From positions 1 to 57,004 of the IMG/VR virus record IMGVR_UViG_3300024999_000122: DNA of 57,004 nt; one strand, written 5' to 3'. Below, in pieces: positions 14,003-57,004 of the stretch. The translations under genes were made by a program, and so were the position numbers. The notes below the pieces were generated by a model. It did not search any database and was not told where the DNA came from. It saw nothing but the letters and a program-made list of their open reading frames with translations. This DNA is from a virus. Position 1 is the first letter of the stretch. Every line of letters starts with the position of its first letter.

Positions 14003-14030
14003 GAATAAAGAACTATTTACTTCTTTATTC
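14003..14030. promoter_or_regulatory. Inverted repeat upstream of the recombinase
   Basis: GAATAAAGAA (14003-14012) and TTCTTTATTC (14021-14030) are perfect 10-bp arms around 8 nt. It may be a recombinase arm site, an operator (its AAAGAA/TTCTTT arms resemble the repeat at 17647-17668) or a weak terminator of the fibre cassette; no T-run follows. Confidence 0.5.
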
Positions 14031-14038
14031 GTCAATGT

Positions 14039-14088
14039 TAGCATAATTCTAATTCCGAAATAAAAAGAGGGGGATTAGAATTATGCTA
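14039..14088 (+). promoter_or_regulatory. Long hairpin sequestering RBS and start of the recombinase
   Basis: Arms of 15 perfect base pairs (14039-14053 with 14074-14088), extended to 18 in RNA by U54-G73, C55-G72 and C56-G71. The 14-nt loop (14057-14070) contains only the start of the GAGGGGG binding site; the rest of that site and the ATG at 14083 lie in the stem. In the mRNA the ribosome entry would be blocked unless the hairpin is opened, which predicts strong translational control. In DNA the palindrome might also be a recombinase-binding core. Confidence 0.75.
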
Positions 14089-15081
14089 TCTACTGCCACG
14101 GGAGACATTTTAAGTAACCAGGTTATGGGGTTAGTGTACTCGTTATATCCTAACATTGACGCTGAATTACTCCAGCTGGGGTTGAGTAGGTTAATTTCCC
14201 AGTATGACGTTAGACCTTCTAAACTGGGGGAAGGTAACCCAGACCTTCATCAGAAAATAACACTGTTCCTGGAAGGTAAAAGGCTGGAGGGTTTAAGCCC
14301 CGTAACCCTAGCTAGTTATCTTATAGAATTGCGTACGTTCTCCAGGTATATCCAGAAGCCAGCGGCAGACATAACGACTACTGATATTAGGTATTTCTTA
14401 AGCCAGTGGGAAAGTCTAAAAACTAGCTCATTATCTAAAAAACTCTCAGTTCTTAAAAGTTTTTTCAGCTGGCTAAATACTGAAGAAATAGTAACCAAAG
14501 ACCCGACACGAAGGATTAAGCCGCCGAAAAAAGAAAAACGCTTACCTAAGAGCCTGTCAGTCGAGGAATTGGAACTACTGAGGGAGGCGTGCAGGACCAG
14601 AAGGGAACGTGCAGTAGTCGAAGTACTGTATTCTACGGGCTGCCGACTATCCGAGGTATTAAACTTAAACAAGGAGGACATAAATTACCAGTCAATGTCT
14701 ACACGGGTAATAGGCAAGGGGAACAAAGAAAGGGAGGTATTTTTCTCTCATAAGGCCCTGTTCCACTTGAAAAAGTATTTTATCCAACGTAAGGACATGA
14801 GCCAGGCGTTATTTTCAACAGAACGCCAGCCCTACGAGCGGCTATCTTCCAGGGGCCTACAAAGGGAGATAAAAGTAATTGCCGCCCGTGCTGGGTTAAC
14901 TAAAAGCGTATACCCTCACATTTTTAGGCATACATTCGCCACAGACTTACTTAATAACGGCGCTGAACTATCGACCGTACAGGCCCTATTAGGGCATGAA
15001 GACCCGGCGACGACGCTAATTTATTGTTCAGTTACCGACGATAAGAAGCGCCAAGCACATAAGCAATATCACGCACAATAG
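14083..15081 (+). CDS. Tyrosine recombinase (XerC/D-like integrase)
   Basis: 332 residues. An N-terminal SAM-like DNA-binding domain (LEGLSPVTLASYLIELRTFSRYI, about 75-105) is followed by the catalytic domain with Arg in STGCRLSEVLNL (near 187), HIFRHTFATDL (H-x-x-R near 280) and the nucleophile in TTLIYCSV (near 313). These enzymes integrate, excise or resolve circular DNA. No serine recombinase or excisionase lies next to it; a MerR/Xis-like HTH gene lies at 34617. It sits alone between the tail fibre and lysis genes, with its own hairpin leader and terminator. Confidence 0.9.
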   Translation: MLSTATGDILSNQVMGLVYSLYPNIDAELLQLGLSRLISQYDVRPSKLGEGNPDLHQKITLFLEGKRLEGLSPVTLASYLIELRTFSRYIQKPAADITTTDIRYFLSQWESLKTSSLSKKLSVLKSFFSWLNTEEIVTKDPTRRIKPPKKEKRLPKSLSVEELELLREACRTRRERAVVEVLYSTGCRLSEVLNLNKEDINYQSMSTRVIGKGNKEREVFFSHKALFHLKKYFIQRKDMSQALFSTERQPYERLSSRGLQREIKVIAARAGLTKSVYPHIFRHTFATDLLNNGAELSTVQALLGHEDPATTLIYCSVTDDKKRQAHKQYHAQ

Positions 15082-17038: not shown

Positions 17039-17416
17039 GTGGCTAATAAATTAAAGCTGGAACTGGTAACGGGCTACGGTAGTATTACAGGTAAGACCGT
17101 AACACTGAGCAGGGGGAAGAAGACGAAAAGCCTTAAATTTGTAACGGGTATGTTTAACGAAATCCAGGACTACGAAGTAACGGGCCTGGAATGGCAGCAG
17201 AAAGACGAAAGAAGCTTAGGCAAGGGCCTGGGCGGCGGTATTATAGGCGGGTTACTGGCCGGTCCTTTTGGCCTGGCTGCGGGGGCTGCGTTAGGCGGGC
17301 GTAAGAAAGATAAGTCCACAGCTGTAATACGGGTGGACGCCAACGGCCAGGAAGCAGCTATTTACGTGCAATGCGACGCCAGGGAGTACGAAGAACTTAC
17401 CAGGCTGCTAATGTAA
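17039..17416 (+). CDS. Hypothetical protein with glycine zipper
   Basis: 125 residues, GTG start with AGGGGGC upstream. The middle (GKGLGGGIIGGLLAGPFGLAAGAALGG-type) is a glycine-zipper helix pair able to enter membranes; both flanks are soluble, beta-type and charged. It lies alone between two terminator-like elements, as phage morons expressed in the prophage state often do. I cannot assign a function; superinfection control is one guess. Confidence 0.6.
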   Translation: MANKLKLELVTGYGSITGKTVTLSRGKKTKSLKFVTGMFNEIQDYEVTGLEWQQKDERSLGKGLGGGIIGGLLAGPFGLAAGAALGGRKKDKSTAVIRVDANGQEAAIYVQCDAREYEELTRLLM

Positions 17417-17460
17417 AAGACTTCCAGCTTTAGAACGACGGGGAGAGGGTCTTACATACA

Positions 17461-17625
17461 TACTATGTATATATACATATAACTAATACTATTATATATA
17501 ATATATATATATTATAGTAGTATATATAATATATAAGGTATGTAATTACTTAGGGGGGTATACTTTTTTAATTTTGGTTTTTAGAAATCAAAGTTAGGGG
17601 GGACTACCCCCCTTCTTATTTTGCG
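17461..17625 (+). repeat. AT-rich boundary element, copy A
   Basis: The 303-base gap between the late region and the early genes holds a long TA-rich tract, a 34-bp core at 17513-17546 that is identical to 48300-48333, a G6 run (17553-17558) followed by TATACTTTTTT, and a hairpin GGGGGG-ACTA-CCCCCC (17597-17612) followed by TTCTTATTTT. The second copy at 48.24 kb has the same parts at the same spacing. Possible roles are a terminator/attenuator, a replication origin or a regulator binding region. Confidence 0.8.
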
Positions 17626-17646
17626 TTCTTATATATTAATTTTCAG

Positions 17647-17668
17647 TAAAGAAGTATTGACTTCTTTA
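17647..17668. promoter_or_regulatory. Palindromic operator over the early promoter
   Basis: TAAAGAAGT (17647-17655) and ACTTCTTTA (17660-17668) are perfect inverted arms around 4 nt and cover the -35 box of the promoter at 17657. TTGACTTCTTTA recurs at 24360-24371 and a related inverted repeat lies at 14003-14030, so a dimeric regulator may act at several places. Confidence 0.65.
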
Positions 17669-17685
17669 TATCATTTTAGTAATAT
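17657..17685 (+). promoter_or_regulatory. Sigma-A promoter of the early operon
   Basis: TTGACT (17657-17662), 17-bp spacer, TAATAT (17680-17685). The first early gene begins 34 bases after the -10 box. The -35 box is inside a perfect inverted repeat, which suggests repression. Confidence 0.82.
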
Positions 17686-19222: not shown

Positions 19223-19533
19223 ACGACCAACTACTAAGGGAGTTTGTGGACCTGGTAAAGGTAGCGGGCAGGGGTACCTTACACCCTGCCCAGGCAGCCA
19301 CGGCAGAAAAACTAGAGCAGGAAATACTTAGGCGTATGGCCTACAAAGTAGAACCCCACGAAGTAAGCCTACGTGTGTACCATATGCGGCACGCTGAACG
19401 ACGTATAGGGGAAATAAGCCTGAGTATAGCTGGCCTGGACAAGAGAATAGCCAAGGAGTACGACGACCTGGTACATGAGATACGACGGCTAGAACACGAA
19501 ATGACCAAGATACTAGAAGGAGGTAAAAGGTAA
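19216..19533 (+). CDS. Coiled-coil hypothetical protein
   Basis: 105 residues, mostly helical. C-terminal 40 residues are highly charged and heptad-like (DKRIAKEYDDLVHEIRRLEHEM). GAGG upstream lies within the previous gene. It overlaps the following ribbon-helix-helix-like gene by one base (TAATG). Function unknown. Confidence 0.6.
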   Translation: MLDDQLLREFVDLVKVAGRGTLHPAQAATAEKLEQEILRRMAYKVEPHEVSLRVYHMRHAERRIGEISLSIAGLDKRIAKEYDDLVHEIRRLEHEMTKILEGGKR

Positions 19534-19802
19534 TGGCAAAGGGTAAACCAACAAACGGTGCCCCACTTGTAAACCTTAATAGCAAGGTAACCCCAGAAAC
19601 GAAGGCCCTTATAGACGCGCTTATAGGGATAGGCAGCCCTGGTATAGGCAGCGTTCGGGAATTAATCGAAGAAGCCTTAAAGCTGCTGGAGAAGGAACGG
19701 CCCGACGACATGGCCACGGCCCGTAAATTCATGGAACTTTTAGGGTCTACGCAGGATCGGCGGAAGTACAAAGACGGCACCGCTAAAAATATTTTGCAAT
19801 AA
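19533..19802 (+). CDS. Ribbon-helix-helix-like DNA-binding protein
   Basis: 89 residues. The beta strand VNLNSKVTPETKALIDALI followed by SVRELIEEALKLLEKE has the strand-helix-helix plan of Arc/MetJ-type repressors and of relaxosome accessory proteins. It lies upstream of a terminator and of the conjugation-like genes. The assignment is structural inference only. Confidence 0.5.
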   Translation: MAKGKPTNGAPLVNLNSKVTPETKALIDALIGIGSPGIGSVRELIEEALKLLEKERPDDMATARKFMELLGSTQDRRKYKDGTAKNILQ

Positions 19803-24352: not shown

Positions 24353-24420
24353 ATAGTTCTTGACTTCTTTACTAATAGGCGTCAAACTAGGACTATAAGA
24401 AATTTAAGGGGGTATAACCT

Positions 24421-24991: not shown

Positions 24992-25117
24992 ATGAAAGCG
25001 GGCATGTTAGTGATAAGGGGCAAGTCTAACGACGTGACTAAACAGCTTAAGGAAATGAAGCCCGAAGACTTCGAAGCGTTAAAGCGCCAGGTACTTACCA
25101 GAAAGGGGCTACAGTAA
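24992..25117 (+). CDS. Small protein ahead of the split SbcC
   Basis: 41 residues, ATG behind AAAGGGGGCGG. Reads MKAGMLVIRGKSNDV, then a charged helix ending TRKGLQ. Its TAA overlaps the ATG of the SbcC gene (TAATG), so it probably serves translational coupling. Family unknown. Confidence 0.65.
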   Translation: MKAGMLVIRGKSNDVTKQLKEMKPEDFEALKRQVLTRKGLQ

Positions 25118-26694
25118 TGGCCAAGATCGAATACGTTAAAGCCTGGGGCTTATGGTCGCACTTCGAAAGCTACTTTATGCTAAGCCCAAGCCTGACCGTA
25201 GTAACTGGACCCAACGGCAGCGGTAAAAGTAGCCTACTAAGAATCATTAAATGGGTAGCCCTGGGCGAACCAAGCGGGGAAAATTTCATTTTTAAGGTAG
25301 AGGACGAAGACACGAAGGAGGTACTAAAACAGTCCGAAGAAGGACGCGCAGAGATAGGCCTAGACAATGGGGTAGTCATTACCAAGACCAGGCGTAAAGG
25401 TAAGACGACGCACACTATTAGCACGATAGCGGAACCGTTCGAAAAGGCAGAGGTACCCCAGGAGATTAAGGACGCGCTGGGTATCACTAAATACAAGTTC
25501 GGGGACTTCGAAACTTATCTAAACTTCGCCTTCCAGCTGGAAGCGCCGTTTTTACTTTCAGAAAGCCCCAGCGTAGGCGCTAAGGTACTGGGAAAACTAG
25601 CTGGAACCGAAGCGGTGGACCTGGCTATAGGCGAAGCTACCAAGAGGACAAGCAGGACCCAGAAGCTTATTTCTACGGCTAAAAAGGACGTCGTACGGAT
25701 TAACGGCGACTTACTAGAATACCAGGACCTAGACGACCTACAGCAGCAGCTTAAGGCCTGCGAATTCCTTGTAGAAGAACTGGACAATAACGCCAGCAAG
25801 CGCCAGACGTTAGCCGAACTTACGAACCTACTGATACGTTCCAGGGATAGCCTGGAAACCTTGGAAACCGAGCTAGTGAAACTGGCTATAGTCCCAGACC
25901 TGGCGCTAGACCTAAAGAACATTGACCAGGCCCAGCAACGGTACGACGACCTACTAAGTCTATATGGGCAGCTTGACAGCAGCATACAGACCATAGACGA
26001 CCTTGCCGCCCAGCTGGTTAACTTTGAAGGGCTAAACGTCGCCGCGTTACTAATGGACAGCCTAGACGCCATTGAACGACGCCTAAGCACTATTCAAAGT
26101 TTATCCACGGAATTAATAAGTTACACGCAGGCCATTAAGGAAGCCGAGGACTTCCTGGAAACGACGAAGGGCCTGGACGTTGCCGCCTTACTCGTAGACA
26201 GTGCAGAAACTACCGACAGACGCCTAACCACTATTACCAAGTTATCCACTGACCTACTAAGTTATAAGCAGGCCATTAAGGAAGCCGACGACTTTTTACA
26301 GACTACCAAAGACCTGGACGTAGCAGCCGACAACCTGGGACACGTTGAAAAGCACGCCGCACGTATGGACAAGCTGCGGAACCTTTACGGAGAACATACC
26401 ATAGCCAGCAGCCAGGTAACGCGGCTTACGAAGGACATTACGGGCCTGGAAGGGGTAAAGGAAGCCGCCGACCTAGTTACGGCAGCAGGGCTAAGCATAG
26501 GACGCCTGGACACGCTTAGGCAGCTGGGGAGGGAATACACGGTAAAGGCTGACACGGTAATTAGTTCGGTAGCCGAGCTAGGGGCAGCCGTAAAAGCGCA
26601 AGGGTACGCCGAAGACGAACTAAGTAAAGCCTGGGAAGCGGCGGGGGGTAAATGCCCGCTATGTGACCAGGCAGTAGATACTCATAGCCATTAA
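25117..26694 (+). CDS. sbcC: SbcC/Rad50-like ATPase, N-terminal half with zinc hook
   Basis: 525 residues. Residues 1-130 are the N-terminal ATPase lobe with Walker A GPNGSGKSS (near 32-40) and a Q-loop FQLEAPFLLS. A long coiled coil follows, with a 47-residue tandem duplication (from LNVAALLMDS and LDVAALLVDS). The protein ends at the zinc hook, KCPLCDQ, six residues before the stop. In ordinary SbcC/gp46 the chain would return through a second coiled coil to Walker B; here that part is a separate gene at 28486. With SbcD (29402) it would process DNA ends for recombination. Confidence 0.85.
   Translation: MAKIEYVKAWGLWSHFESYFMLSPSLTVVTGPNGSGKSSLLRIIKWVALGEPSGENFIFKVEDEDTKEVLKQSEEGRAEIGLDNGVVITKTRRKGKTTHTISTIAEPFEKAEVPQEIKDALGITKYKFGDFETYLNFAFQLEAPFLLSESPSVGAKVLGKLAGTEAVDLAIGEATKRTSRTQKLISTAKKDVVRINGDLLEYQDLDDLQQQLKACEFLVEELDNNASKRQTLAELTNLLIRSRDSLETLETELVKLAIVPDLALDLKNIDQAQQRYDDLLSLYGQLDSSIQTIDDLAAQLVNFEGLNVAALLMDSLDAIERRLSTIQSLSTELISYTQAIKEAEDFLETTKGLDVAALLVDSAETTDRRLTTITKLSTDLLSYKQAIKEADDFLQTTKDLDVAADNLGHVEKHAARMDKLRNLYGEHTIASSQVTRLTKDITGLEGVKEAADLVTAAGLSIGRLDTLRQLGREYTVKADTVISSVAELGAAVKAQGYAEDELSKAWEAAGGKCPLCDQAVDTHSH
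26024..26320 (+). repeat. Tandem 141-bp duplication inside SbcC coiled coil
   Basis: Two 47-codon units share the pattern V-A-A-L-L-x-D-S, R-R-L-x-T-I, L-S-T-x-L, Y-x-Q-A-I-K-E-A and D-F-L-x-T-T-K. The duplicated units lengthen the coiled coil without shifting the heptad register much. Confidence 0.75.
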
Positions 26695-29226: not shown

Positions 29227-29405
29227 AAGTAAAACTAAGTGAATTCCCTAACCAACCTGGAGCCATGGCCTGCTGTAAAGAATGTCAAGGAAAAACGCGT
29301 AAGGATTGCCAGCCCGAACCAATGAACTGCCCAGACTTCTTTATACAGAATAAGACGTTTATGGACAGACGGCTTATGGATGCCGAAGAGGGGGTAAAAA
29401 CATGA
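29223..29405 (+). CDS. Small cysteine-rich protein between SbcC and SbcD
   Basis: 60 residues with CCKECQGKTRKDCQPEPMNC, a likely zinc-binding set. Start overlaps SbcC-C (ATGA) and stop overlaps SbcD (ATGA), so all three are translationally coupled. Function unknown. Confidence 0.6.
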   Translation: MKVKLSEFPNQPGAMACCKECQGKTRKDCQPEPMNCPDFFIQNKTFMDRRLMDAEEGVKT

Positions 29406-30406
29406 TACGTCTACTATTTACCGCGGATTGGCACTTACGGGGAGCGAACCCCAGGAACCGCACCGACGACTACAAGGAAGCAGTAAAGGCCAAGCTGCTA
29501 GAATGTTTCCAGCTAGCTAAAAAGTGGGAAGTAAATGCTATTCTGACACCTGGGGACATATGGGACAGCTTCGTAGTCAGTATAGGAACGCTGCTAGAGT
29601 ACGCGGACTTTATCAATGAACACAGCGGCGGCGTCCCAATACTTACGACCTTCGGCCAGCACGACGTACAGGGCTACAACGTCGCCAGCTTATACCGTAC
29701 TAGCCTGGCCCTGCTGGAAAGACTGGTACCGAATCTACGGATATACAAGAACCCCAGCGACCCCAACGACGTAGCCTATATATTTAACGACAACGGCTAC
29801 ACGGAAGCGGCTATAACCTTCACGCCATACAGTCGAAAGATGGACGTAAACGGCTACGGCTACAGCCCAGAAGTTAAGCTAGTAGAAGGAATTACGAGTA
29901 TCCAGGTATCCCACGGTACCCTATTAGATCACGAACCGCCGTTTGATAAGTTTACCCTGGTAGACGACGCAGTAACGACGGCCGACCTGGTACTAACGGG
30001 GGACTACCACCCTGGCTACGGACTTATTAAACGGGCCGACGGGAAGGTATTCTATAACCCAGGCAGCCTAACACGTCTTAAGGCGTCCGAAGCAGAGATA
30101 GCGCGAACCATAGCCGTAGGCCTGGTAACGGTAGATGGTAAGGACATCGACGTAAAGACCATACAGCTGGAGAGCGCGAAGCCTGGCGACGAAGTATTAG
30201 ACCGTAGCCGAATCGAAGCCGAAAAAGAACGGGCCTACGCTATGGACACGTTTAGCGCCCTTATGCAGACCAAGACCGAAGGGGCTGTACTTCTGGACAT
30301 TAACACCATCGTAGAAGCTATAGCCGCCCAGGAGGAAACAGCGCCACATATCGTTAAGGCAGCCCTGGAACTAATCGACGAGCAGCGGGCAAACGTGGTA
30401 GCGTAG
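29402..30406 (+). CDS. sbcD: SbcD/Mre11-like nuclease
   Basis: 334 residues. Metallophosphoesterase motifs in order: TADWHLRG (D-x-H, near 8-15), GDIWDS (near 51), GQHDVQGYN in place of GNHD (near 86), SHGTLLDHE (near 176) and GDYHPGYG (near 200). It is the nuclease partner of the two SbcC parts, acting on double-strand ends and hairpins during phage recombination and replication. Confidence 0.88.
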   Translation: MIRLLFTADWHLRGANPRNRTDDYKEAVKAKLLECFQLAKKWEVNAILTPGDIWDSFVVSIGTLLEYADFINEHSGGVPILTTFGQHDVQGYNVASLYRTSLALLERLVPNLRIYKNPSDPNDVAYIFNDNGYTEAAITFTPYSRKMDVNGYGYSPEVKLVEGITSIQVSHGTLLDHEPPFDKFTLVDDAVTTADLVLTGDYHPGYGLIKRADGKVFYNPGSLTRLKASEAEIARTIAVGLVTVDGKDIDVKTIQLESAKPGDEVLDRSRIEAEKERAYAMDTFSALMQTKTEGAVLLDINTIVEAIAAQEETAPHIVKAALELIDEQRANVVA

Positions 30407-32598: not shown

Positions 32599-34276
32599 TA
32601 ATAACATTCGGCTACGAGGACTTACCACGCCGCTACGGGCTGCGATAACTACGGCCTTGACGATTGATAACCCCGAATTCGTGGACCGTAGGAAGAAGCG
32701 ACAGGCTACCTGGGGGATAGACGCTAAACTCCAGCTGTATATTTACGATGGTACCGACATGGTAGCGCCCAGGGGATTTATAGGGGAGTTACGGGACATT
32801 CTTACCGCCCAGGGATTAAGCCCAGACAAGGTAATAACGGTAGATCAAAACTTAGGCAAGGCCGCAGACTTCGGGCCGTGGAACCCAGCCTATAAACTAC
32901 GGGAAGATCAGAAGCCGTTAGTAGCGTCCCTGGTAGCGGATAACGGCATAGGCGTAGCCCCAGCTGGAAGCGGTAAGACAATTATGGGTATGCGGTACAT
33001 TTACGAGGTAGGCCGCCTTACGTTATGGCTAACCCATACGACAGACCTTATGTACCAGACCGAGGAACGGGCCGAAGCAGCGTTACAGGGGGTAGGAAAA
33101 GTAGGCCTACTGGGCGACAGTCTAAAGGAATGGGGTGACGGTAAACTAATCATAGCGACCGTACAGACGCTACAGGCTAATCCTAAGCTATTCGAAATAC
33201 TGGACCCTATTGTAGGCGTCGTCATAATCGACGAGGCCCACCACTTCCCAGCTGGCCAGTTTATCGACGTCGCCGCGAAGTTCAAGGCTGCTAGAATCAT
33301 AGGCCTAACGGCGACACCAGATAGGAAGGACAAGCTAGAACGGTTTATGTACATGGGCATAGGACCGAAGCGCCACGAAATAACCCGCGACGGGCTGTAC
33401 GAATCGGGTAAGCTGATAAAGCCAGACGTTAAATTTATCTTTACTAAGTTCAACTTCGAACAGGCCAGCATACGGGAGGGCACAAACGTAGACGCTGGCG
33501 GCGACGACTTCGACTACATCGAACTTATCCAGGCCTTAATACGTGACCAGGCCAGGGCTGAACTGGTAGCGGAAAACATTATACAGACGTTCCCAGGGGC
33601 AGGAAAAGCCGTCATAGTGCTGACCGAAAGCGTACGGTATTGCTACAAGCTTCGGGACGAATGTCTTAAGTATTTTAACAAGACCTACGCGGCTAACCCG
33701 CCGACAATGGCCGTTATACATGGGGGAATTAGCCGCTACGTATGGCGTAACATACGGGGCGGGCAACGTGCAGCCGAACGCATGGTAGTAAACGGTAAGG
33801 CCCTGGAATGTAAAAAGGCTGGAGCAAGAAGCTGGAAGGTAAAAGTAGAACAGTATACCGAACAAGAATTTAAGGACTGGCAAGTAACCCCAGGACAGCG
33901 TAAGGCAGCCCTGGAAGCCCTGGGAAACAAAAAGGTAGATATACTGTTTACTACCCAGCTGGCCAGGGAAGGCCTGGACTTCGCTCATTTAACCGTAGGG
34001 CATATGGCGACGCCGAAACGTGGCGACGCCCAGGGCAGAAAAGACGGGGCAGCAGTAGAACAGGAAATAGGACGTATCATGCGGCCAGACGCTTCTAACC
34101 CCGACAAAAAGGCAGCCTGGTACGATTACGTAGACTACGAGGTAGGCGTGCTACAGAGTCAGTATTACAGCCGCAGGAAAGTGTACGTACGCCTGGGCCT
34201 GGCTACACCGAAAAAGCCGCCTAAGGAAGCCGAACGGGATCTAATAGACAGCTTCTTAAGCGGGGACATGTACTAA
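32579..34276 (+). CDS. SF2 DNA helicase, apparent AUU start
   Basis: 565 residues if started at ATT 32579, nine bases after GAGGGGG. The first ATG/GTG/TTG is TTG 32657, but it has no binding site and would remove IQITLSNNIRLRGLTTPLRA, which reads like the normal N-terminus of phage helicases (followed by LTIDNPEF). Motifs: I APAGSGKT (near 125), II IIDEAHH (near 216), III LTATPDR, VI QEIGRIMRPD. It unwinds DNA or branched structures for replication or recombination. Confidence 0.85.
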   Translation: MIQITLSNNIRLRGLTTPLRAAITTALTIDNPEFVDRRKKRQATWGIDAKLQLYIYDGTDMVAPRGFIGELRDILTAQGLSPDKVITVDQNLGKAADFGPWNPAYKLREDQKPLVASLVADNGIGVAPAGSGKTIMGMRYIYEVGRLTLWLTHTTDLMYQTEERAEAALQGVGKVGLLGDSLKEWGDGKLIIATVQTLQANPKLFEILDPIVGVVIIDEAHHFPAGQFIDVAAKFKAARIIGLTATPDRKDKLERFMYMGIGPKRHEITRDGLYESGKLIKPDVKFIFTKFNFEQASIREGTNVDAGGDDFDYIELIQALIRDQARAELVAENIIQTFPGAGKAVIVLTESVRYCYKLRDECLKYFNKTYAANPPTMAVIHGGISRYVWRNIRGGQRAAERMVVNGKALECKKAGARSWKVKVEQYTEQEFKDWQVTPGQRKAALEALGNKKVDILFTTQLAREGLDFAHLTVGHMATPKRGDAQGRKDGAAVEQEIGRIMRPDASNPDKKAAWYDYVDYEVGVLQSQYYSRRKVYVRLGLATPKKPPKEAERDLIDSFLSGDMY

Positions 34277-34874: not shown

Positions 34875-35690
34875 ATGAGTACGAAAGACGCTAACAAAAC
34901 AGAGGTAACCGAAACAGTCCAGGAAAACACAGGAGCAGCCCAGGAAACCCCAGCCACAGAAACCGTCGCCACTGAAAACCTACCAGTAGTTACTACCGAA
35001 GGCGCTGTAGTAAAGTCAACAGTCGGGACAGCCTACATTACCAAGCTTTTAACCGCTATTAAAGAAGAATTCGTAGAGGCTAACGCAGACCTAGACATGG
35101 ACTTCGTGTTTATGGGTACCTGGCTTACCATAGACAAAAAAGGGAACTTCGTAGAGAAAGACGACGAAACTGTAAAGTATGGCGACAGTATCGACGTAGT
35201 GTTTGGCCAAGGAGAAAAGCGCTGGTCTGTATGGGGACTTAAAGACAGCCCAGAAGACGGCACCCTTATTGTGGCCTGCAAGGAAAAGCCCGAAGCAGAA
35301 GCACAAATGACCGCATGGCTGGAGGCTAACCCCGAAGCCCAGAGCCGTTACACGCTTGACAGCCTAGAACTTCGTTACATGGCCTTCGTCGTACCTGTAA
35401 GCACGCTAAACCCTGAAGACTTCCCAAAGGTTTACCTAATGAGTTTTAGCCCGACCGCTACCCTGGACTACGGTAAGTATGCCATGGCGGTATTCGGTGG
35501 ACGCTATAAGCTTATGGGAGTTAAGGCCCGTACAGGAATTAACAAGGTAGTAACCAGGCTTACGACCGCTGAGAAAACAGGTAAAAAATTCGATTGGATA
35601 GGCATAGACTTTACAGCTGTAGGCATGTTCAGCCCAGCCGACTACGGAATAGTCGAGACAGAAGAACCAACGGCAGCAGCCGCCGAATAA
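34875..35690 (+). CDS. Putative phage single-stranded DNA-binding protein
   Basis: 271 residues. A Thr/Glu-rich tail (1-45), a beta-rich middle domain (50-170) with several Trp and Phe (FVFMGTWLTI, RWSVWGLKD), and an acidic C-terminus (VETEEPTAAAAE). An aromatic beta domain plus acidic tail and its position directly before primase-helicase fit a single-strand-binding protein. I see no diagnostic SSB motif, so this is inference. Confidence 0.45.
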   Translation: MSTKDANKTEVTETVQENTGAAQETPATETVATENLPVVTTEGAVVKSTVGTAYITKLLTAIKEEFVEANADLDMDFVFMGTWLTIDKKGNFVEKDDETVKYGDSIDVVFGQGEKRWSVWGLKDSPEDGTLIVACKEKPEAEAQMTAWLEANPEAQSRYTLDSLELRYMAFVVPVSTLNPEDFPKVYLMSFSPTATLDYGKYAMAVFGGRYKLMGVKARTGINKVVTRLTTAEKTGKKFDWIGIDFTAVGMFSPADYGIVETEEPTAAAAE

Positions 35691-35713: not shown

Positions 35714-38700
35714 ATGGCTGGAAAAGATACAAGTCTACAAGACTACAAATACGTAGACGTATGGTACAGCGACGAAAAAGGTAAAAGTAGCCCCTGGCAG
35801 CGTATAGAAATGGGCGGTGTCCCTAAATTCCAGCAGGAAGAAGCGTTCAACTTTAATTGTTTCGCTACCGTGCAGCGCTTCGCTAGTAAGACGAAGGTAA
35901 AGGGGGAGGCCTTTATAGCCCCCCTTTTCTTCGACCTAGATTATGAAGCAGACCCGGGCCTAGCTAAGGACGAATCAGTAAGAATAGTTGACTTCTTCAT
36001 AACGGAATTAGACGTAAAGCCCACAGACATATGGGTATATTTTAGCGGTAGTAAGGGCTTCCATATACTCGTAAGCGGCCAGGCTATTGGTATCGAACCT
36101 AGTCATACCCTACACAAGGTATTCAATCATATAGCGGGGTACCTTAAATACAGGCTGGGTAACGTCGTCGTAAAAGAAGACGAAACAGGCAAAGAACAGG
36201 ACGTAGTGGAACCGCTTAAAAGCATTGACCCAGTAGTATACACGTCGTACAGAATGTTAAGGCTGCCAAACAGTGTACACGCTAAGACGCGCCTGTTTAA
36301 GGTAGAACTGACCATAGACGAACTAAGGACCCTAAGCATGGACGAAATACGGGATAAGGCTCGTATGCCACGGAGAAGCGACGAAGGGCTATTTACCGCC
36401 GAAGAACGCCAGACAGCGTTAGGGTTACGGAAAACTACGGCCGCCTTCTTCGCTGACAAGCGCCAGGAATATGAACAGGCCGCGGCGACGTCCAGCCAGA
36501 AGTACGAAAAAGAAGAATTCGTATTTGTAAAGGATAAGCCGCCCGTATGCGTTAAGGACATTTTAAAAGGAGGCTGGAAGAAGAACGGGGACCGTAACCA
36601 GGCCACTGTACAGATAGCCTGCTATTTTAAGGCCGCAGGGCATACCAGGGAAGACGCGCTAAACACACTGGAAGCCTGGGTAAAGGACCATACCAGCGCT
36701 TCTGGGGGCTACCAGCTAAGCCAAAGGGTAGCTAATACCCGTAGCGTCGTCGAAGCTGTGTTTAGCAAAGAGAACGAATATAAGTTTGGTTGTGCTTTTA
36801 TTCGCAGCTTGCACGGGGCCAAGACACCAGGAAGCAAAGACTACGACCGTGTACCGTGTGCAGGGGACTTATGTGAAGTTCTTAAACGAAACGTAGACCC
36901 AGACGAAGAAGCCGTAAGCCTTCATTTAGCGGCCACGGGCGCGGCAGAATTCACGGGTAAACTGATACGTACCAGGGTAATGGTAGCAGGCAAGAAGCAT
37001 ACCCCTTATATCGTTCCTAAGAAGATCGAGTACAACTGCTGGGGACGGGAAAAATGTAAACGGTATGGCTGCCCACTGTATAACTTACCGAATAGCACAG
37101 CCTACAAGGATCTAAGCGTACAGAACCGCGAATTAATCCAAATGACAGCCACGGGCGACGACAACATAAAGGGTATTATCAAGGAACTAAGCGGTATACC
37201 AAACTGTACGAAATTTGACACGGAAATTGTAGAAACTACGAACGTCGAAGAACTTCTAGTAATTCCAATGGCTGACACGGAAACCGTAAGGCCGGACGAC
37301 GAAAAACACGAAGGAAAGTACGTTCTACGTCGTGTCTACTCAGTGGGAGCCTTGAAAATATCGGAAAACAAATACTATGAGATCGAAGGTTATGTTTACC
37401 CGCATCCTAAGAACCAAGAAAGTACCGTTATCGTTAAGTCCGCTACGCCCTTACAGGACGTCGTAGACAGCTTCATACTTACAGACGAGGTAAAGGCCGA
37501 CCTGGCGGTATTCCAGCCAGCGGACTATACAGCCGAAGCCATAGCCGAGAAACTAGGTAGCGTACTGAATGACCTAACCTACAACGTGACGCACATAGTA
37601 GAACGTGACGAAGTTTTACTAGGCGTGTTACTTACTTACCACAGCGTTTTACGTTTCCATGTTCCATGGGACGTGGACGCCATACGGGGCTGGCTAGAAC
37701 TTAAGGTAGTGGGCGACACGGGGACAGGTAAAAGCGCCCTTATCGAAAAGATACAGCGTTACGCAGGCCTGGGGGCCAGGGTAAACGCTGAAAGTACGAG
37801 TAGGACAGGCCTAACTTACAAAATGGAACAGTCCGGCAGCGGAGGCGCCTGGTACATTGTCTGGGGAGCCTGGCCGCTATCAGACAAAGAGCTGATATGG
37901 ATTGACGAAGACACGGGAATCGAGAAGGAAGCCTATGGAGAAATGACCCTAGCCCGGAGCGACGGACGATTAGAAGTAAAAAGGGCTGTAACCGCAGAAA
38001 CGCCCTGCCGAGTACGGGCGATAATGAGCGGTAACGCGCCAAAGGGAAAACGTCTAGCGGAATATACCCAGGGCGTCGAAAGCATGAAAGACATTTTTAA
38101 CAATGAGGATATAAGGCGTTTCGACTTCGGGGTATTTATGCGGGCCACGGACGTAGACGCAGCCCTTTATAATCAAAAGTTGCCGATATTCCCCAGCACT
38201 ATTAGCACAGAAACCTTTACACGGAACATTCTTTTTGCCTGGTCACGGGAACCAGAAGCCGTAAGCTTCGCAGGGGGAACCATCGAACGCATACTAGAAG
38301 CCGCGACAGAGTTAAGTAAGATTTACGGTAATGCTACTGACGTGCCCCTAGTTAGCCCTTCTGACCAAAGGAACAAGCTGGCACGGTTAACGGTAGCCCT
38401 AGCGGCCCTGACTAATAGCGTGGATGAAAGCGGCGAACGTATTGTAGTATGGCCAGGGCACGTAGACTTTATACTTACGTACCTTAAAGGCATCTATAAC
38501 GCCCCAGGATGCGGCCTAAACTACTACGCCAGGCTATCAGTCAAGGAAGAGGAATTAAGCGAAGACAGGTACGTAAAACTGACCACAGAGCTAAGGAAAC
38601 TGGACACGCTTAAGGGCCAGAATAAGTACCTAGAATTCATTACGTTATTCGCCCAGCAGAAGTATTTAAGACTGGGGGACGTCGAAGCCATGCTAAGCAT

Positions 38701-38857
38701 AGACAAGGAAGAAGCTAAGGCCGTGGTAAACCTTCTGGCCAAGTTACGAATGGTTATTATGACGTCTGGCGGGTACCGAAAAACGCCACGCTTCAACAGC
38801 TATATTGCTAAGTGCTTCGAACTTGGCCTATTCGATAACCTGGACAATGACATTTAA
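35714..38857 (+). CDS. Archaeo-eukaryotic primase fused to MCM-like AAA+ helicase
   Basis: 1047 residues. Primase domain (about 1-230): FFDLDYEAD (metal-binding Asp pair near 73) and FSGSKGFHI (near 110), the AEP signature. Middle: cysteine-rich segments (CAGDLC near 384, CWGREKCKRYGC near 441) that may bind zinc or iron-sulfur. Helicase: Walker A GDTGTGKSA (near 667), Walker B LIWIDED (near 727) and IMSGNAPKGKR (sensor-1 like, near 775). The latter group reads like MCM rather than DnaB. A similar fusion is known from Bacillus cereus elements (BcMCM). It would prime and unwind at the phage fork. Confidence 0.8.
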   Translation: MAGKDTSLQDYKYVDVWYSDEKGKSSPWQRIEMGGVPKFQQEEAFNFNCFATVQRFASKTKVKGEAFIAPLFFDLDYEADPGLAKDESVRIVDFFITELDVKPTDIWVYFSGSKGFHILVSGQAIGIEPSHTLHKVFNHIAGYLKYRLGNVVVKEDETGKEQDVVEPLKSIDPVVYTSYRMLRLPNSVHAKTRLFKVELTIDELRTLSMDEIRDKARMPRRSDEGLFTAEERQTALGLRKTTAAFFADKRQEYEQAAATSSQKYEKEEFVFVKDKPPVCVKDILKGGWKKNGDRNQATVQIACYFKAAGHTREDALNTLEAWVKDHTSASGGYQLSQRVANTRSVVEAVFSKENEYKFGCAFIRSLHGAKTPGSKDYDRVPCAGDLCEVLKRNVDPDEEAVSLHLAATGAAEFTGKLIRTRVMVAGKKHTPYIVPKKIEYNCWGREKCKRYGCPLYNLPNSTAYKDLSVQNRELIQMTATGDDNIKGIIKELSGIPNCTKFDTEIVETTNVEELLVIPMADTETVRPDDEKHEGKYVLRRVYSVGALKISENKYYEIEGYVYPHPKNQESTVIVKSATPLQDVVDSFILTDEVKADLAVFQPADYTAEAIAEKLGSVLNDLTYNVTHIVERDEVLLGVLLTYHSVLRFHVPWDVDAIRGWLELKVVGDTGTGKSALIEKIQRYAGLGARVNAESTSRTGLTYKMEQSGSGGAWYIVWGAWPLSDKELIWIDEDTGIEKEAYGEMTLARSDGRLEVKRAVTAETPCRVRAIMSGNAPKGKRLAEYTQGVESMKDIFNNEDIRRFDFGVFMRATDVDAALYNQKLPIFPSTISTETFTRNILFAWSREPEAVSFAGGTIERILEAATELSKIYGNATDVPLVSPSDQRNKLARLTVALAALTNSVDESGERIVVWPGHVDFILTYLKGIYNAPGCGLNYYARLSVKEEELSEDRYVKLTTELRKLDTLKGQNKYLEFITLFAQQKYLRLGDVEAMLSIDKEEAKAVVNLLAKLRMVIMTSGGYRKTPRFNSYIAKCFELGLFDNLDNDI

Positions 38858-38869
38858 GGAGGTGGAAAC

Positions 38870-40267
38870 ATGCCAAAGGTCATAGATATGTTTTGTGGTG
38901 GGGGCGGTATGGGGCTAGCCTTCCAGCTGGAGGGTTACGAAATACCTTTAGCCTTCGACTTCGATAAGTTTTGTGTAGAAACGTACAGGGCTAATGTAGG
39001 TGACCACGTTAAACAGATCGACATTACAAAGCTTACAGCTATGGAATTACCTTACGCTGACGTGTGGACGTTCGGATTTCCCTGCCAAGACCTTAGTATA
39101 GCTGGTAAACAGGCTGGGCTATTCGAAGGCAAGCGTAGCGGTTTATTCTTCGAAGTAATGCGTTTATTAGACGAATCGACAGGCCGCCCTAAAATGCTAC
39201 TAGCGGAAAACGTAAAGGGGTTAAAGCCTTATTTGCCTGTTCTAGAACAAGAGTTTAAGGCTCGGGGCTACAGGATGTATGTAAATGTTTTTAACTCTAA
39301 ATACTGGGACGTACCACAGAACAGGGAACGGTATTACGTCGTCGGTGTACGGGACGACGTAGCAGGTGACTTCGTCTATCCTACAGAACAGCATGAATCC
39401 GTACCTAAGCTTTCTACCGTGTTAGAAACAGATGTAGCCGAAAAGTATTATATCAGTGACGAAAAGGCTGAGAAGATCCTAGAGCAGGCGCTTCTTAAGC
39501 TGGACAAGTTAGGTACGGTACATTCTACGATTACGCCAGATCGTGTAGACAAAAAGCAGAACGGGCGACGGGCTAAAGCGGACGACGAAGAAATGTATAC
39601 ACTCACGGCGCAGGATTTACATGGCGTGATACTGCGTTGGCGGAACTCTACAGACGGCCTGGTACCCAGTGACACGGCCCCGACGCTAAAGGCTAACGCT
39701 CATAAAGCTGGAGAACGTAACACGCCTTTTGTTATCGAAGAACCCCGGATAAACGTAGTAGGTATATTAGACCAACCGGGGCACGAACACCGAAAACGAG
39801 TACACGACCCCGAAGGATTAAGCCCGACCGTAACAGCCGTAGCAGGCGGGGATCAACAGGTTAAGATACTGGAGCCGTTGTTAGTACCAGTAGGCGACAC
39901 GGCCGCCAGCGCCCTTATGCACAGTCGAGGATTAGAAACACGTAAGGATAGCGTATGTCATTGTGTAAAAGGCGCGGAGGGGGGCAGTAGTAAAGGTCAC
40001 TTAGTAGAACGAACAGTGACAGGCTACCGTGTCCGCAGGCTAACGCCAACGGAATATGGACGACTTCAGGGCTTCCCTATGGATACCTGGAAGCAAGTAG
40101 TAAGTAACAGCCAGGCCTATAAGCAATTCGGGAACGCGGTAACCGTTACAGTAGCCCGTGCTATGGCTAAGACTATAAAGGAATTTTTAGGGGAGGGGTT
40201 ACGCGGTGAAACTAGGCAGCATGTTCCCGCCATCGAAGACATTAGCGGGGTCAATCCCCAGCCCTAA
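38870..40267 (+). CDS. DNA (cytosine-5) methyltransferase
   Basis: 465 residues, AAGGAGG upstream. Motif I MFCGGGGMGLAFQLEG (near 6-21), motif IV FGFPCQDLSIAG with the catalytic Cys near 75, motif VI LLAENVKGL, motif VIII PQNRERYYVVG, and IX-X RRLTPTEYGRLQGFP and QFGNAVTV. The target recognition region (about 205-370) is long. No cognate endonuclease is nearby, so it is probably an orphan that protects phage DNA from host restriction. Confidence 0.92.
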   Translation: MPKVIDMFCGGGGMGLAFQLEGYEIPLAFDFDKFCVETYRANVGDHVKQIDITKLTAMELPYADVWTFGFPCQDLSIAGKQAGLFEGKRSGLFFEVMRLLDESTGRPKMLLAENVKGLKPYLPVLEQEFKARGYRMYVNVFNSKYWDVPQNRERYYVVGVRDDVAGDFVYPTEQHESVPKLSTVLETDVAEKYYISDEKAEKILEQALLKLDKLGTVHSTITPDRVDKKQNGRRAKADDEEMYTLTAQDLHGVILRWRNSTDGLVPSDTAPTLKANAHKAGERNTPFVIEEPRINVVGILDQPGHEHRKRVHDPEGLSPTVTAVAGGDQQVKILEPLLVPVGDTAASALMHSRGLETRKDSVCHCVKGAEGGSSKGHLVERTVTGYRVRRLTPTEYGRLQGFPMDTWKQVVSNSQAYKQFGNAVTVTVARAMAKTIKEFLGEGLRGETRQHVPAIEDISGVNPQP

Positions 40268-42779
40268 AGCCGTCGCCGATTCGACCAGTGCCGCCGTAAG
40301 ACATTGTTTAAGGGACGTACTAAAGGCCAAGAAGCCAGGAGAATTTAAGGTAGACTGGCCGAAGTTTAAGCCCCAGGAACCGAAAGACTACCAGGTAATA
40401 ACTACGGTAAAACAGCTGGAAGATTACCTAGTACGCTGTGAATTTACAGGCCTGGGCGGCTTCGACTATGAGACAGCCGCGAACCAGCAGGAGCGGGAAC
40501 GCTTCGCTAAGTTCGCGGCCGAGATCGAAACCAGGAGGGCAGCAGCCAAGGGCCAGGCAGGCGACGACGTTAAACTACTGGATAAGCTTATAAAGGCTAT
40601 AGACACGGACTACGAAAAGGAGCGTACAGACCATTTAAGTACGCCCCTTGACCCGTGGAAGGCTGACCTATGCAGTATGAGCCTGGCAGCTGGTCCGAAC
40701 GAAGCACGGGCCGTATTCGTAAGCCACAAGAAAGGTAATAACCTATTTGAACCTTCTTTAGGCCGCGACGAAGCCCGCCAGCTGCTTATGGACACGTTAG
40801 AACGTCTGTTCTTTACGAATTCTAAAATTATGAAGATAGCCGTAAACCTGGCCTTCGAAGCGAAGCTTACAGCTAAGTATGGGAAGTACGTCTTAATGCC
40901 CGTAGCGGACCCGTTCGTAGCCTGGGTAAGACTTACGCAGCTGCTAACGCCACACAAGATCAAGAACCCGAAGAAGCCTACCAGCGGCAAGGGCCTTAAG
41001 CCTATGACGTTCGAGGTATTCGGGGTACGTATGAACGACTTTAAAGACGTACTAGCGAAGCACGGGGCCGACTTCTACGACGAAGTAGACAGCGACAGCC
41101 AGGACGCCCTAGTATACTGCTGCGAAGACAGCGACTACGCCATACAGCATTACCTTTACTGGGACTACGTGGCCAAGCAAATACCGAACGAAAACGACCT
41201 ATATAAAACGTACTCGGACTGGCTGCATAACATCGAAATGCCCTTTAGCCGTGTAATAGGCCTTATGGAATTCTGGGGTATGTACTGGGATAAGGACCTA
41301 AGCGAAGTTAAGCGCCAGGACGCCGCTACGATGCAGGCCAAGGCAGCTGACGAAATCAAACGTATCACGAAGGAAGCCCTGGGCCTGGACGTAAACCCGG
41401 GTAAGTCTGGGAAAACTGGCGAAGTAAAAAGCGTACTATTCGACGTGATGAAGGTACCAGCAGCGGCCTGGTCTGACACGACGAAAGACCCCAGCCTTGA
41501 CGCTAACGCCATCATGGATATGACCTTTATGCTGGAAAACAAGCTACTAGACCCAGACGAAGAAAAGTATTTAAGTGCCACGCTGCCCGAAGACTGGGAA
41601 ACCATAAACACGGAAACAGACCCCAGGCTAGACAAGGCTACCAGGATGCGAGTACGTATCGAGCAGCGGGAGCCGCACCCACACAGGGACGCCGCCATAG
41701 CCCTACTGGCCGAACTTAAGAAAATCCAGAAGTATAACACGTTACTAAGTAGCCATATCGTAGGCCGTGAAAAGTACCTAAACGAAGTTACTAACCGAAT
41801 TCACGCAAACTACACGCCCTGGACAGAAACCAGCCGCCTTAATTCCATGAAACCGAACGGCCAGAACGTGCCTAAAATGGATAACGACGAATTCGAAATA
41901 CGTAACTTTTACCGGGCACCAGGCGGTAAAATGTTGTTCCTTATTGACTACGCGGGCTTCGAACTTCGTCTAATATGCTGGAAGTCTGGCGACGAAGTTA
42001 TGATGGACATTTTCTGGAATAACGGGGATATGCACAGGAAGACAGCGGCGACGTTAACAGGGAAAGCCGAAGCAGACGTAACGAAGCACGAACGGGGCGA
42101 CGCGAAGCCTGGGAACTTCGGGATAACTTACGGAGGTACAGAACACGCCCTACAGAAGACCTTTAAGAAGTACGGAATACGTAAGAGCCTGGCAGAGTGC
42201 GCGCTAATCGTAACGGCGGTAAAGACGACGTACAAACGAATACCCGAATACCAGCAGAACGCTATAATCATATCCCGTGACACGGGCTACGCTGAATGTA
42301 TCTACGGCTATAAGCGCCTTTTACCTAACATCAATAGCAGCAACAACACGGCCAGGGGAGAAGACGAGCGCCGCGCAGGAAATACTCCTATTCAAGGTAC
42401 CGCCGCCGAGATTATGAAACGCTCACAGACGACGGTATACGAGAAGATCGGACTAGACACAGCGGCTAAGAACCTGGGCGTAAAGGTAGAGGTATGGGAC
42501 GGCTTTATACCAGAACTTAAAGCCCTGCTGGAGGAACCACCTGTAATGTGCCACGGTATTACGGACATGATAGCCCAAATACACGACGAAATTATATTCC
42601 AGTTCGACGACGACGTAGAAGTAGCCAAGGCAGCGGGGTACTGGGTTAAGAAGGTTATGGAAGTACCGCCTATGCCAGGCTTCCCGCTACCGATACAAGC
42701 AGACGCCAGCGGGGCCTACGCCTGGGGCAGTAAAGTAGATTTCGACAAATGGGTAGAACAGAAGGAGGGGGCGGGGTAA
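40206..42779 (+). CDS. Family A DNA polymerase with 3'-5' exonuclease domain
   Basis: 857 residues from GTG 40206, with GGGGAGGGG upstream. It overlaps the methyltransferase by 62 bases, which adds a Ser/Pro-rich N-terminus. Exonuclease motif I FDYETA is near residue 87; DSDYAIQHY near 305 corresponds to motif III. Polymerase motif A LIDYAGFELR (near 580), motif B KPGNFGITYGG (near 637), NTPIQGTAAE, and motif C IHDEIIF (near 793). A 45-residue insertion separates the O-helix region from motif C. It is the phage replicase. The TAA overlaps the MazG start. Confidence 0.9.
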   Translation: MKLGSMFPPSKTLAGSIPSPKAVADSTSAAVRHCLRDVLKAKKPGEFKVDWPKFKPQEPKDYQVITTVKQLEDYLVRCEFTGLGGFDYETAANQQERERFAKFAAEIETRRAAAKGQAGDDVKLLDKLIKAIDTDYEKERTDHLSTPLDPWKADLCSMSLAAGPNEARAVFVSHKKGNNLFEPSLGRDEARQLLMDTLERLFFTNSKIMKIAVNLAFEAKLTAKYGKYVLMPVADPFVAWVRLTQLLTPHKIKNPKKPTSGKGLKPMTFEVFGVRMNDFKDVLAKHGADFYDEVDSDSQDALVYCCEDSDYAIQHYLYWDYVAKQIPNENDLYKTYSDWLHNIEMPFSRVIGLMEFWGMYWDKDLSEVKRQDAATMQAKAADEIKRITKEALGLDVNPGKSGKTGEVKSVLFDVMKVPAAAWSDTTKDPSLDANAIMDMTFMLENKLLDPDEEKYLSATLPEDWETINTETDPRLDKATRMRVRIEQREPHPHRDAAIALLAELKKIQKYNTLLSSHIVGREKYLNEVTNRIHANYTPWTETSRLNSMKPNGQNVPKMDNDEFEIRNFYRAPGGKMLFLIDYAGFELRLICWKSGDEVMMDIFWNNGDMHRKTAATLTGKAEADVTKHERGDAKPGNFGITYGGTEHALQKTFKKYGIRKSLAECALIVTAVKTTYKRIPEYQQNAIIISRDTGYAECIYGYKRLLPNINSSNNTARGEDERRAGNTPIQGTAAEIMKRSQTTVYEKIGLDTAAKNLGVKVEVWDGFIPELKALLEEPPVMCHGITDMIAQIHDEIIFQFDDDVEVAKAAGYWVKKVMEVPPMPGFPLPIQADASGAYAWGSKVDFDKWVEQKEGAG

Positions 42780-48129: not shown

Positions 48130-48238
48130 AAGGGACAACGTGGCAGGGGGAACTGGGCAAGAAATCGAAAAGCTGGAGAAGGGCATAGACCCCCTAGACA
48201 GTATCCTAATTACTTCCAGCTTGAAAACCTTTAAATAA
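47975..48238 (+). CDS. Helical protein, second of a duplicated pair
   Basis: 87 residues from a TTG without a good binding site. ATGISPQRAEDLAYQAEQLV and YGISVEQAIDSVLKK repeat the pattern of the upstream gene (AGL...AEE...YG...AAD...K). Either a separate gene starting at a weak TTG inside its neighbour or the 3' half of one 47818-48238 gene joined by +1 frameshift. Confidence 0.5.
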   Translation: MSSILAAFTATGISPQRAEDLAYQAEQLVERYGISVEQAIDSVLKKCYEYRKRDNVAGGTGQEIEKLEKGIDPLDSILITSSLKTFK

Positions 48239-48240
48239 AG

Positions 48241-48402
48241 ACCCTATATATAACTATATATATATATAACTTATAACTTAATATATATATTATATATAAT
48301 ATAGTAGTATATATAATATATAAGGTATGTAATACTTTAGGGGGGTTACTTTTTTATTTTTGATTTTTAAAATTTTATTTATAGGGGGGACTACCCCCCC
48401 TT
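48241..48402 (+). repeat. AT-rich boundary element, copy B
   Basis: A TA-rich tract, a 34-bp core (48300-48333) identical to copy A, a G6 run (48340-48345) followed by TTACTTTTTT, and the hairpin GGGGGG-ACTA-CCCCCC (48384-48399) with one additional C. The two G-runs are 44 nt apart, exactly as in copy A. It separates the end of the early operon from the late regulator gene. Confidence 0.8.
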
Positions 48403-48451
48403 AATTTTAAAACATTATATATTATCGTGATTCTGACACGGGGGGCACAAA

Positions 48452-48844
48452 ATGGGGGTAAGAATCGAGGGTTTAGTCAGTAAGAAGGTAGTCCTGGGAT
48501 GGCTGGAGAATTACGACAGCCTGGTAAGCGGGGACCGTCCCTTTGACGCTATGCCCAGTAATTCGGGGGCTAAGGTATTCGACGGGGTAAGTGGTGGGCA
48601 AATGAATAAGATCATGCTGGAGGCTGCTATAAGGGATTTACCGCCAGTATTACATGTTTGTTTGGTTTACCGCTGGGTAGAGCGTAGACCGTTATGGGAG
48701 GCGTTACGAAGGACGGGAATACCCAAGAGTACGTATTATAGGCGCTGTGCTAAGGCCGTGGAGTTTATTTATTACCACGTGAACGGTATAGCGGCTGGAA
48801 TTAAGGACCTTTTAACGCAAATAGGGAGTAATAGCCGCAGATAG
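48452..48844 (+). CDS. ArpU/Q-like late transcription regulator
   Basis: 130 residues. A helical body (LEAAIRDLPPVLHVCLVYRWV) precedes a helix-turn-helix like sigma-70 region 4 (LWEALRRTGIPKSTYYRRCAKAVEFI, about 88-113). This layout is typical of ArpU-type regulators and Q-type antiterminators that switch on phage late genes. It stands directly before a promoter-hairpin-terminator leader and the terminase operon. An antitermination mechanism is inference. Confidence 0.7.
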   Translation: MGVRIEGLVSKKVVLGWLENYDSLVSGDRPFDAMPSNSGAKVFDGVSGGQMNKIMLEAAIRDLPPVLHVCLVYRWVERRPLWEALRRTGIPKSTYYRRCAKAVEFIYYHVNGIAAGIKDLLTQIGSNSRR

Positions 48845-56601: not shown

Positions 56602-57004
56602 ATGAATAACGACGTAACAATCAGAACCGCCAGCGCGGCGGCGTCCCAGGAAATTAAGGCCAGCGCACATTATGCATATATCACGAACGGGATTACCTTA
56701 GACGGCAGCAAGTTTGCGGCTGCTGAATTAGTGAATTCCGGTCAATGTCTGGTAAAAGACGACGCTACGGGTAAGTATGAAAAGTACGCAGACGGTACAG
56801 CGGGTACTGGCCCAGCCATATTATTGGGGGCTAACGCGATTACTCCAGCAGCAGTAGCAGGCCTTCACGCTAACACTGTGCTAGCCGTAACAATCGGGGG
56901 TGCGGCGTTTACAATGAGTAACGCAGTAATAAAGGCGCTGCCTATTGCGGCTGCCGCGGCTAAGCCTGCGGTACTAATCGGGAGCGCGGCTATAAATAAC
57001 GCCG
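56602..57004 (+). CDS. Head decoration protein, 5' part (continues at position 130)
   Basis: From ATG 56602 with GAAAGGAAGG upstream. First 134 codons of the 388-residue protein; opening NNDVTIRTASAAASQEIKAS and a beta-rich domain with LVKDDATGKYEKYADGTAG. The sequence reaches the window end inside the terminal repeat and continues without frame change at the left end. Confidence 0.72.
   Translation, partial: MNNDVTIRTASAAASQEIKASAHYAYITNGITLDGSKFAAAELVNSGQCLVKDDATGKYEKYADGTAGTGPAILLGANAITPAAVAGLHANTVLAVTIGGAAFTMSNAVIKALPIAAAAAKPAVLIGSAAINNA
56879..57004. repeat. Terminal direct repeat, right copy
   Basis: Identical to 4-129; see the left copy. It shows that both ends of the window are neighbours in the genome. 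Confidence 0.9.

Follow-up and report, generated by a model that had tools for sequence, protein, structure and literature searches.

Two copies of a rigid DNA element divide the genome of a Bacillus-type phage, and we consider that they are best explained as the paired replication origins of a PrimPol-MCM replicon, working like oriL and oriR of phage SPP1. On the sequence comparisons set out below, we put the probability of this reading at roughly 0.6. Each copy consists of a TA tract and an adjoining dyad, whose two half-sites (TATA box, 22 nt, G/C run) are a constant distance apart, and the pair is inherited with the PrimPol-MCM replication module and not with the structural genes. A broader proposal, to which we would give even odds, is that such elements are the origins of the PrimPol-MCM replisomes of bacterial viruses and represent a new architecture (rigid G/C-run dyad, TATA boxes and TA tract), occurring as pairs that roughly halve the circular genome, being inherited as a cassette into unrelated virions and recombining to flip the late half.

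Since 2005 phages have been known that encode an MCM helicase as a fusion with an archaeal-type primase (McGeoch and Bell, as cited in PMC5862659), and in the literature searched no replication start site was found described for them. The element pair provides strong candidates for these missing start sites; they are precise candidate origins in phages with cultured hosts, which makes the question directly testable. If the reading is correct, this would be a rare case in which an origin pair travels together with its replisome, as a single cassette, from one virion type to an unrelated one, and it would provide a natural MCM origin in a bacterium that can be compared with archaeal G-string origins.

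In the window, that is the whole stretch of 57,004 nt that was analysed, copy A (17468-17612) and copy B (48255-48399) are 78 % identical over 145 nt and lie 30,787 nt apart (Table 1). The preliminary description of this DNA had reported a shared identity of 34 bp, two G6 runs spaced 44 nt apart, a G6-ACTA-C6 hairpin and a location at the late/early and early/late boundaries. These observations hold: the longest exact match between the copies is 34 nt, the G-runs start 44 nt apart in both (17553/17597 and 48340/48384), both contain the hairpin, and the flanking genes place copy A after the lysis/late end (orf 17039-17416) and ahead of the early operon, and copy B between the end of the early operon and the regulator and terminase genes. 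The spacing is indeed rigid as had been claimed, but it is not the distance between the two G-runs that is conserved; it is that from G-run 1 to the C-run (about 47 nt) and from the C-run to TTATATAT (22 nt). The pattern GGGGGT-N43-50-ACCCCC-N15-18-TTATATAT matches the window four times, on either strand of each copy, where shuffles give an expectation of 0.00. The contig itself ends in an exact direct repeat of 126 nt (window 4-129 and 56879-57004), which suggests that the genome is complete and was assembled as a circle of about 56.88 kb.

Table 1. Positions in the window of the two element copies, the early promoter and the genes of the replication module
Feature	Position	Strand	Remarks
Copy A TA-rich tract, candidate unwinding element	17461..17528	+	within <=20% GC valley 17437-17598
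Copy A left box ATATATAA	17529..17536	+	22 nt before last G of G-run 1
Copy A G-run 1, conserved dyad arm	17553..17558	+	G4-G8 in all relatives
Copy A T-rich spacer, fixed length, 48 nt	17559..17606	+	46-48 nt in most relatives
Copy A second G-run and C-run, GGGGGGACTACCCCCC, terminator-like hairpin	17597..17612	+	second G-run lineage-specific
Copy A C-run, conserved dyad arm	17607..17612	+	
Copy A right box TTATATAT	17629..17636	+	starts 22 nt after first C
Sigma-A-like early promoter TTGACT-17-TAATAT	17657..17685	+	outside element, downstream of copy A
Ribbon-helix-helix-like 89-aa protein, candidate binder or copy-control protein	19533..19802	+	downstream of copy A; low-confidence model
SbcC-like ATPase of module	25117..26694	+	
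SbcD-like nuclease of module	29402..30406	+	
UvsW/XPB-like SF2 helicase of module	32657..34276	+	
271-aa protein (phrog_17870), candidate accessory protein or initiator	34875..35690	+	beside PrimPol-MCM in 25/25 loci found
PrimPol-MCM (primase small subunit and MCM helicase), module marker	35714..38857	+	Pfam DNA_primase_S and MCM; MCM structure match
Family A DNA polymerase (polA) of module	40206..42779	+	
Copy B TA-rich tract	48245..48315	+	within <=20% GC valley 48195-48390
Copy B left box ATATATAA	48316..48323	+	
Copy B G-run 1	48340..48345	+	
Copy B spacer, fixed length, 48 nt	48346..48393	+	includes second G-run 48384-48389
Copy B C-run	48394..48400	+	
Copy B right box TTATATAT	48415..48422	+	
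Regulator gene, sigma-region-4-like HTH fold	48452..48844	+	directly after copy B

About 30 related loci were gathered by terminase and regulator searches, and every near-complete relative checked (about 20 genomes) has two copies and no more, one at the late/early and one at the early/late boundary, as in the window. Copy A directly follows the homolog of orf 17039, or lies at the same late/early boundary where this homolog was not found, while copy B directly precedes the homolog of the regulator gene at 48452. The conserved layout comprises a TA-rich tract, which adjoins every copy (10-32 % GC), and the dyad ATATATAA, 22 nt, GGGG(GG)TA, about 47 nt, TACCCC(CC), 22 nt, TTATATAT. Between the last G and the first C there are 47 nt in most copies (46-48; about 34 copies), with extremes of 42 and 52 nt in two divergent contigs, and the first C stands 22 nt ahead of TTATATAT in nearly all of them. 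The window, G001, G003, G010 and the phBC6A51-like group have the mirror spacing on the left, where ATATATAA ends at a distance of 22 nt from the last G. In the G004/G011/G018 clade the left box is displaced by two, and in the G017/L181 clade a TG/CA-repeat box takes its place. Read on the strand where the TA tract comes first, the spacer is T-rich, T exceeding A in 32 of 34 copies. The earlier argument from conserved spacing with diverged flanks to a function is strongly supported. The outcome named in advance as its refutation, G/C runs that vary freely among relatives, was looked for and did not occur.

A 47-nt gap that stays fixed between 22-nt arms is the constraint to be expected from a protein complex on DNA, an interpretation we favour since an RNA hairpin would tolerate changes in the length of its loop. 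The orientation of copy A relative to the genes is constant in all relatives. Copy B is direct in the window, G001, G002, G020, L172 and L178, and inverted in vB_BboS-125 (G003), G004, G009-G011, G017-G019, L180-L182 and L193. The second G-run is missing from most relatives, a similar addition occurring only in the G009/G010 clade. An RNA switch based on the alternative pairing of one C-run with either G-run, as once proposed, does not agree with these two observations, the rarity of the second G-run and the inversion of copy B relative to its genes in most relatives.

Several other descriptions of the element were tried and dropped. In the window the TA tracts are no more self-complementary than shuffles (z = 0.78 and -0.02), and over 34 copies their palindromes are modest on average (mean z -1.47; 13 of 34 below -2), so that cruciform formation is not argued here. 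Exact searches of the viral contigs with the hairpin GGGGGGACTACCCCCC retrieved unrelated sequences only, which shows that conservation does not reside in the hairpin, the loose motif AAGGTAT-N-TAGGGGG proved too common to be useful, and a distant DNA search of phage records gave chance matches only.

The link between the element and the replisome emerges from searches made in both directions. When the rigid pattern was run against 2.9 million viral contigs, 50 stretches matched, and most full-length contigs with the pattern have exactly two copies, 29-33 kb apart. PrimPol-MCM is encoded in all 19 of the element-bearing contigs of at least 45 kb (36 contigs bear the element altogether). Among 25 viral contigs found by means of PrimPol-MCM, 24 contain the element, three of these being detected only with a GGGG/CCCC version of the pattern; the sole contig without it is a 25.7-kb fragment, and G009, which comes from the same IMG genome, has both copies.

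These contigs belong to three groups with different virions. The first, Elmenteitavirus-like phages, includes the window, which is related to Bacillus phage vB_BboS-125 (terminase 70 %, PrimPol-MCM 68 %), an Elmenteitavirus from Lake Elmenteita, Kenya. The second consists of phBC6A51-like prophages of B. cereus that have no recognisable terminase relationship to the window; their small terminase matches over all 155 residues PDB 2ao9, a phBC6A51 protein (PMC5135824). They share with the window sbcC, sbcD, the UvsW-like helicase, PrimPol-MCM, polA and the regulator, whereas the structural genes are unrelated. The third is represented by the B. velezensis phage-plasmid p3 (NZ_CP079100, 70.5 kb), which has a P27-type terminase and yet other structural genes, and carries the same replication genes. 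It has three valleys of at most 20 % GC, and two of them correspond to copies A and B, which again occupy the late/early and early/late boundaries. Among the three groups PrimPol-MCM is 62-78 % identical. As a control, BSTP5, a phage with a distant MCM-like protein, was found to lack the element in the 50 of its 55 kb that were read.

Bacterial genomes help to separate the members of the module. Out of 400 Paenibacillaceae genomes five contain the regulator and three of these five PrimPol-MCM; the element occurs in exactly these three, each time as two copies about 29-30 kb apart, and is absent from both genomes that have the regulator without PrimPol-MCM (G304 and G309, where the gene order is different). 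The latter two disfavour the regulator as the reason for the element. Co-inheritance still leaves room for other proteins of the module, namely the 271-aa neighbour of PrimPol-MCM or the ribbon-helix-helix-like protein, homologs of which are encoded near copy A in most genomes of all three groups.

Some further features of the module genes may be recorded here. The SbcC-like gene of the window contains an internal tandem duplication of 141 nt (26029-26310) whose halves are 72 % identical. Between PrimPol-MCM and polA the window has, judging from the translation, a cytosine-methyltransferase-like gene (38870-40267), and p3 has an annotated one at 56935-58380. A sigma-70-family factor gene is located between PrimPol-MCM and polA in p3 (NZ_CP079100 51727-52407).

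Paired origins fit these data best because they account for two copies per genome, the TA tract, the rigid dyad and co-inheritance with a replisome across three virion types and an autonomous plasmid. A pair of replication origins was among the earlier proposals and is now the one that the copy number, the dyad and the PrimPol-MCM linkage support most. The dyad would be occupied by a single initiator complex extending over about five helical turns, the candidate initiators being PrimPol-MCM, its 271-aa neighbour and the ribbon-helix-helix-like protein; melting of the TA tract and loading of the MCM helicase would follow. One copy may start theta replication, as has been proposed for SPP1 oriL/oriR, and the other would serve as a second origin or as a fork block that leads to recombination-dependent replication by the SbcCD, UvsW and PolA proteins of the module. 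Occasional recombination between A and B would homogenise the TA tracts and could invert the late half of the genome, while the G6-ACTA-C6 hairpin of the window phage is probably a lineage-specific, terminator-like addition. Several points count against origins. No initiator has been tied to the site, and co-inheritance does not single out which protein of the module would read it; the half-site has the shape of a promoter (C-run, 17 nt, TATATA), and the regulator beside copy B folds like sigma region 4; in some clades the left box is displaced or modified. GC skew, which had been put forward as a check for an origin, reveals no strand switch at copy A or copy B when measured at fourfold sites.

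A close parallel is SPP1, for which two AT-rich origins are described and theta replication is proposed to give way to concatemer synthesis (PMC6316719, PMC3485210). Likenesses include two separated copies of a shared origin sequence per genome, an AT-rich region at each site, which in SPP1 serves for unwinding and accompanies an array of protein-binding repeats, the location of one origin in a non-coding stretch of the late region, and the existence of an inversion variant of SPP1 (PMC6316719, PMC3485210). However, in SPP1 the sites are direct repeats to which gp38 binds, and the helicase they serve is of the DnaB type, whereas the phages studied here have a rigid inverted G/C-run dyad and a PrimPol-MCM replisome, and no gp38-like protein was identified.

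The G-runs recall the origins used by MCM in haloarchaea, where G-strings are essential and are read by Orc1/Cdc6 (PMC3936714, PMC4010727), and where a G-rich inverted repeat beside an AT-rich region boosts firing of oriC1 (PMC3936714). Common to oriC1, with its ORB elements, and to the phage element are an MCM-type replisome and inverted G-strings close to an AT-rich region (PMC3936714). Unlike in oriC1, the TA tract lies beside the dyad and not inside it, and the window encodes no Orc1/Cdc6 homolog (no Cdc6_C match); we therefore regard the G-strings as a likeness and not as a sign of membership of the ORB class. CTTCCAG near the TA tracts was also considered as ORB-like and set aside, the motif (counted as TTCCAG/CTTCCAG) being common in these genomes and weakly enriched upstream. 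The element is thus not filed as either an SPP1 or an ORB origin, and is probably a new kind of paired origin.

A further comparison is with the phBC6A51 prophage of B. cereus, which we take to be the source of the characterised MCM-like helicase. The phBC6A51-like prophages found here carry both PrimPol-MCM and the element pair, and our literature search found no origin described for phBC6A51. In the SaPI and SCCmec elements the origins have short repeats flanking an AT-rich region, and a fused archaeal-type primase is not known from them. They resemble the phages here in having an MCM-like helicase on a mobile element of Firmicutes, and that helicase may be its own initiator, according to work cited in PMC5862659.

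The main rival to paired origins, owing to the promoter-like spacing of the half-sites, is a two-way promoter/operator in which these are read by host RNA polymerase together with a phage factor, for instance the sigma-region-4-like regulator, to time early and late transcription. The 17 nt between C-run and TATATA would suit such a role. The regulator (phrog_23784, with a weak match to the phrog_36 transcriptional regulator) adjoins copy B in all three phage groups, its fold matches the -35-recognition domains of sigma region 4, and a half-site points at its gene in both orientations of copy B. However, G304 and G309 have the regulator without the element, a constant gap of 47 nt is not required by a pair of divergent promoters, copy B of G017 has no TATA box facing the regulator, and copy A is followed by a separate sigma-A-like promoter. 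We consider this reading unlikely.

That the element should be the transcription terminator at the end of each operon is less probable still. In the window a hairpin followed by T-rich DNA is found in both copies at the ends of operons, with terminator-like hits well above those in shuffles (6 against 0.1 in copy A, 3 against 0.3 in copy B), and the termination function suggested previously may apply in this lineage. It cannot be the function shared by all copies, since copy B is inverted in most relatives and then offers no T-tract in the direction of the genes; the close hairpin is also absent from most of them, where a stem would have to close a loop of about 47 nt. Moreover, termination leaves the fixed gap, the TATA boxes and the PrimPol-MCM link unexplained.

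Recombination between the copies is a different matter from a site dedicated to recombination or inversion, by which the late half would be flipped relative to the early half or modules would be exchanged, and the latter is very improbable. Whole structural modules have been swapped between the copies, and within a genome the TA tracts evolve in concert: for 11 of 16 genomes, the nearest to copy A among all copies B is its own, while the spacers are position-specific in several clades. In contig L193 a reversed start of the early operon is joined to the regulator through a copy with an A-type spacer (positions 1-1464 contain this spacer, a promoter of the early type and early genes directed away from the regulator). 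This junction is what an inversion between A and B would make, and L193 is a candidate inversion isomer. As a single metagenome contig of 5.2 kb it could be a misassembly, a simple k-mer misjoin being less likely because the longest A/B identities in relatives are 11-45 nt. A strand-balance scan for inversion isomers was noisy and left L193 as the sole candidate; L255 and L274 were discarded, having a standard early start that reads away from copy A. Against a dedicated site, L193 is alone among about 60 loci in having the alternative junction, half the genome would be lost by recombination in the several phages with directly oriented copies, and no recombinase is conserved with the element, the Xer gene of the window having no homolog in most relatives. 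If L193 is correctly assembled, the recombination envisaged in the preliminary description has occurred between A and B at least once, probably as a by-product.

A partition (centromere) site of a phage-plasmid is the least probable reading. In its favour are the extrachromosomal state of some relatives (p3), the ribbon-helix-helix-like gene near copy A and a ParM-like gene in vB_BboS-125. However, among the genomes compared the ParM-like gene was seen in vB_BboS-125 only, the element also occurs in phages where no partition motor was recognised, and a ParMRC or TubZRC centromere was rejected for want of a conserved motor gene beside the element.

The late region of the window also contains a tyrosine recombinase gene (14083-15081) beside an amidase gene; it is absent from most relatives, with weak homologs in G436 and G438. 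Downstream of copy A, relatives have an AT-rich sequence resembling an early promoter by eye. A 24-nt AGTAAAGAAGTATTGACTTCTTTA-like repeat occurs in the window at 14004-14027, 17645-17668 and 24348-24371, one occurrence overlapping the -35 region of the early promoter and the two others lying elsewhere. The three look like a set of putative repressor operators, and similar TTTACTTCTTTACTT sequences are found downstream of copy A in relatives.
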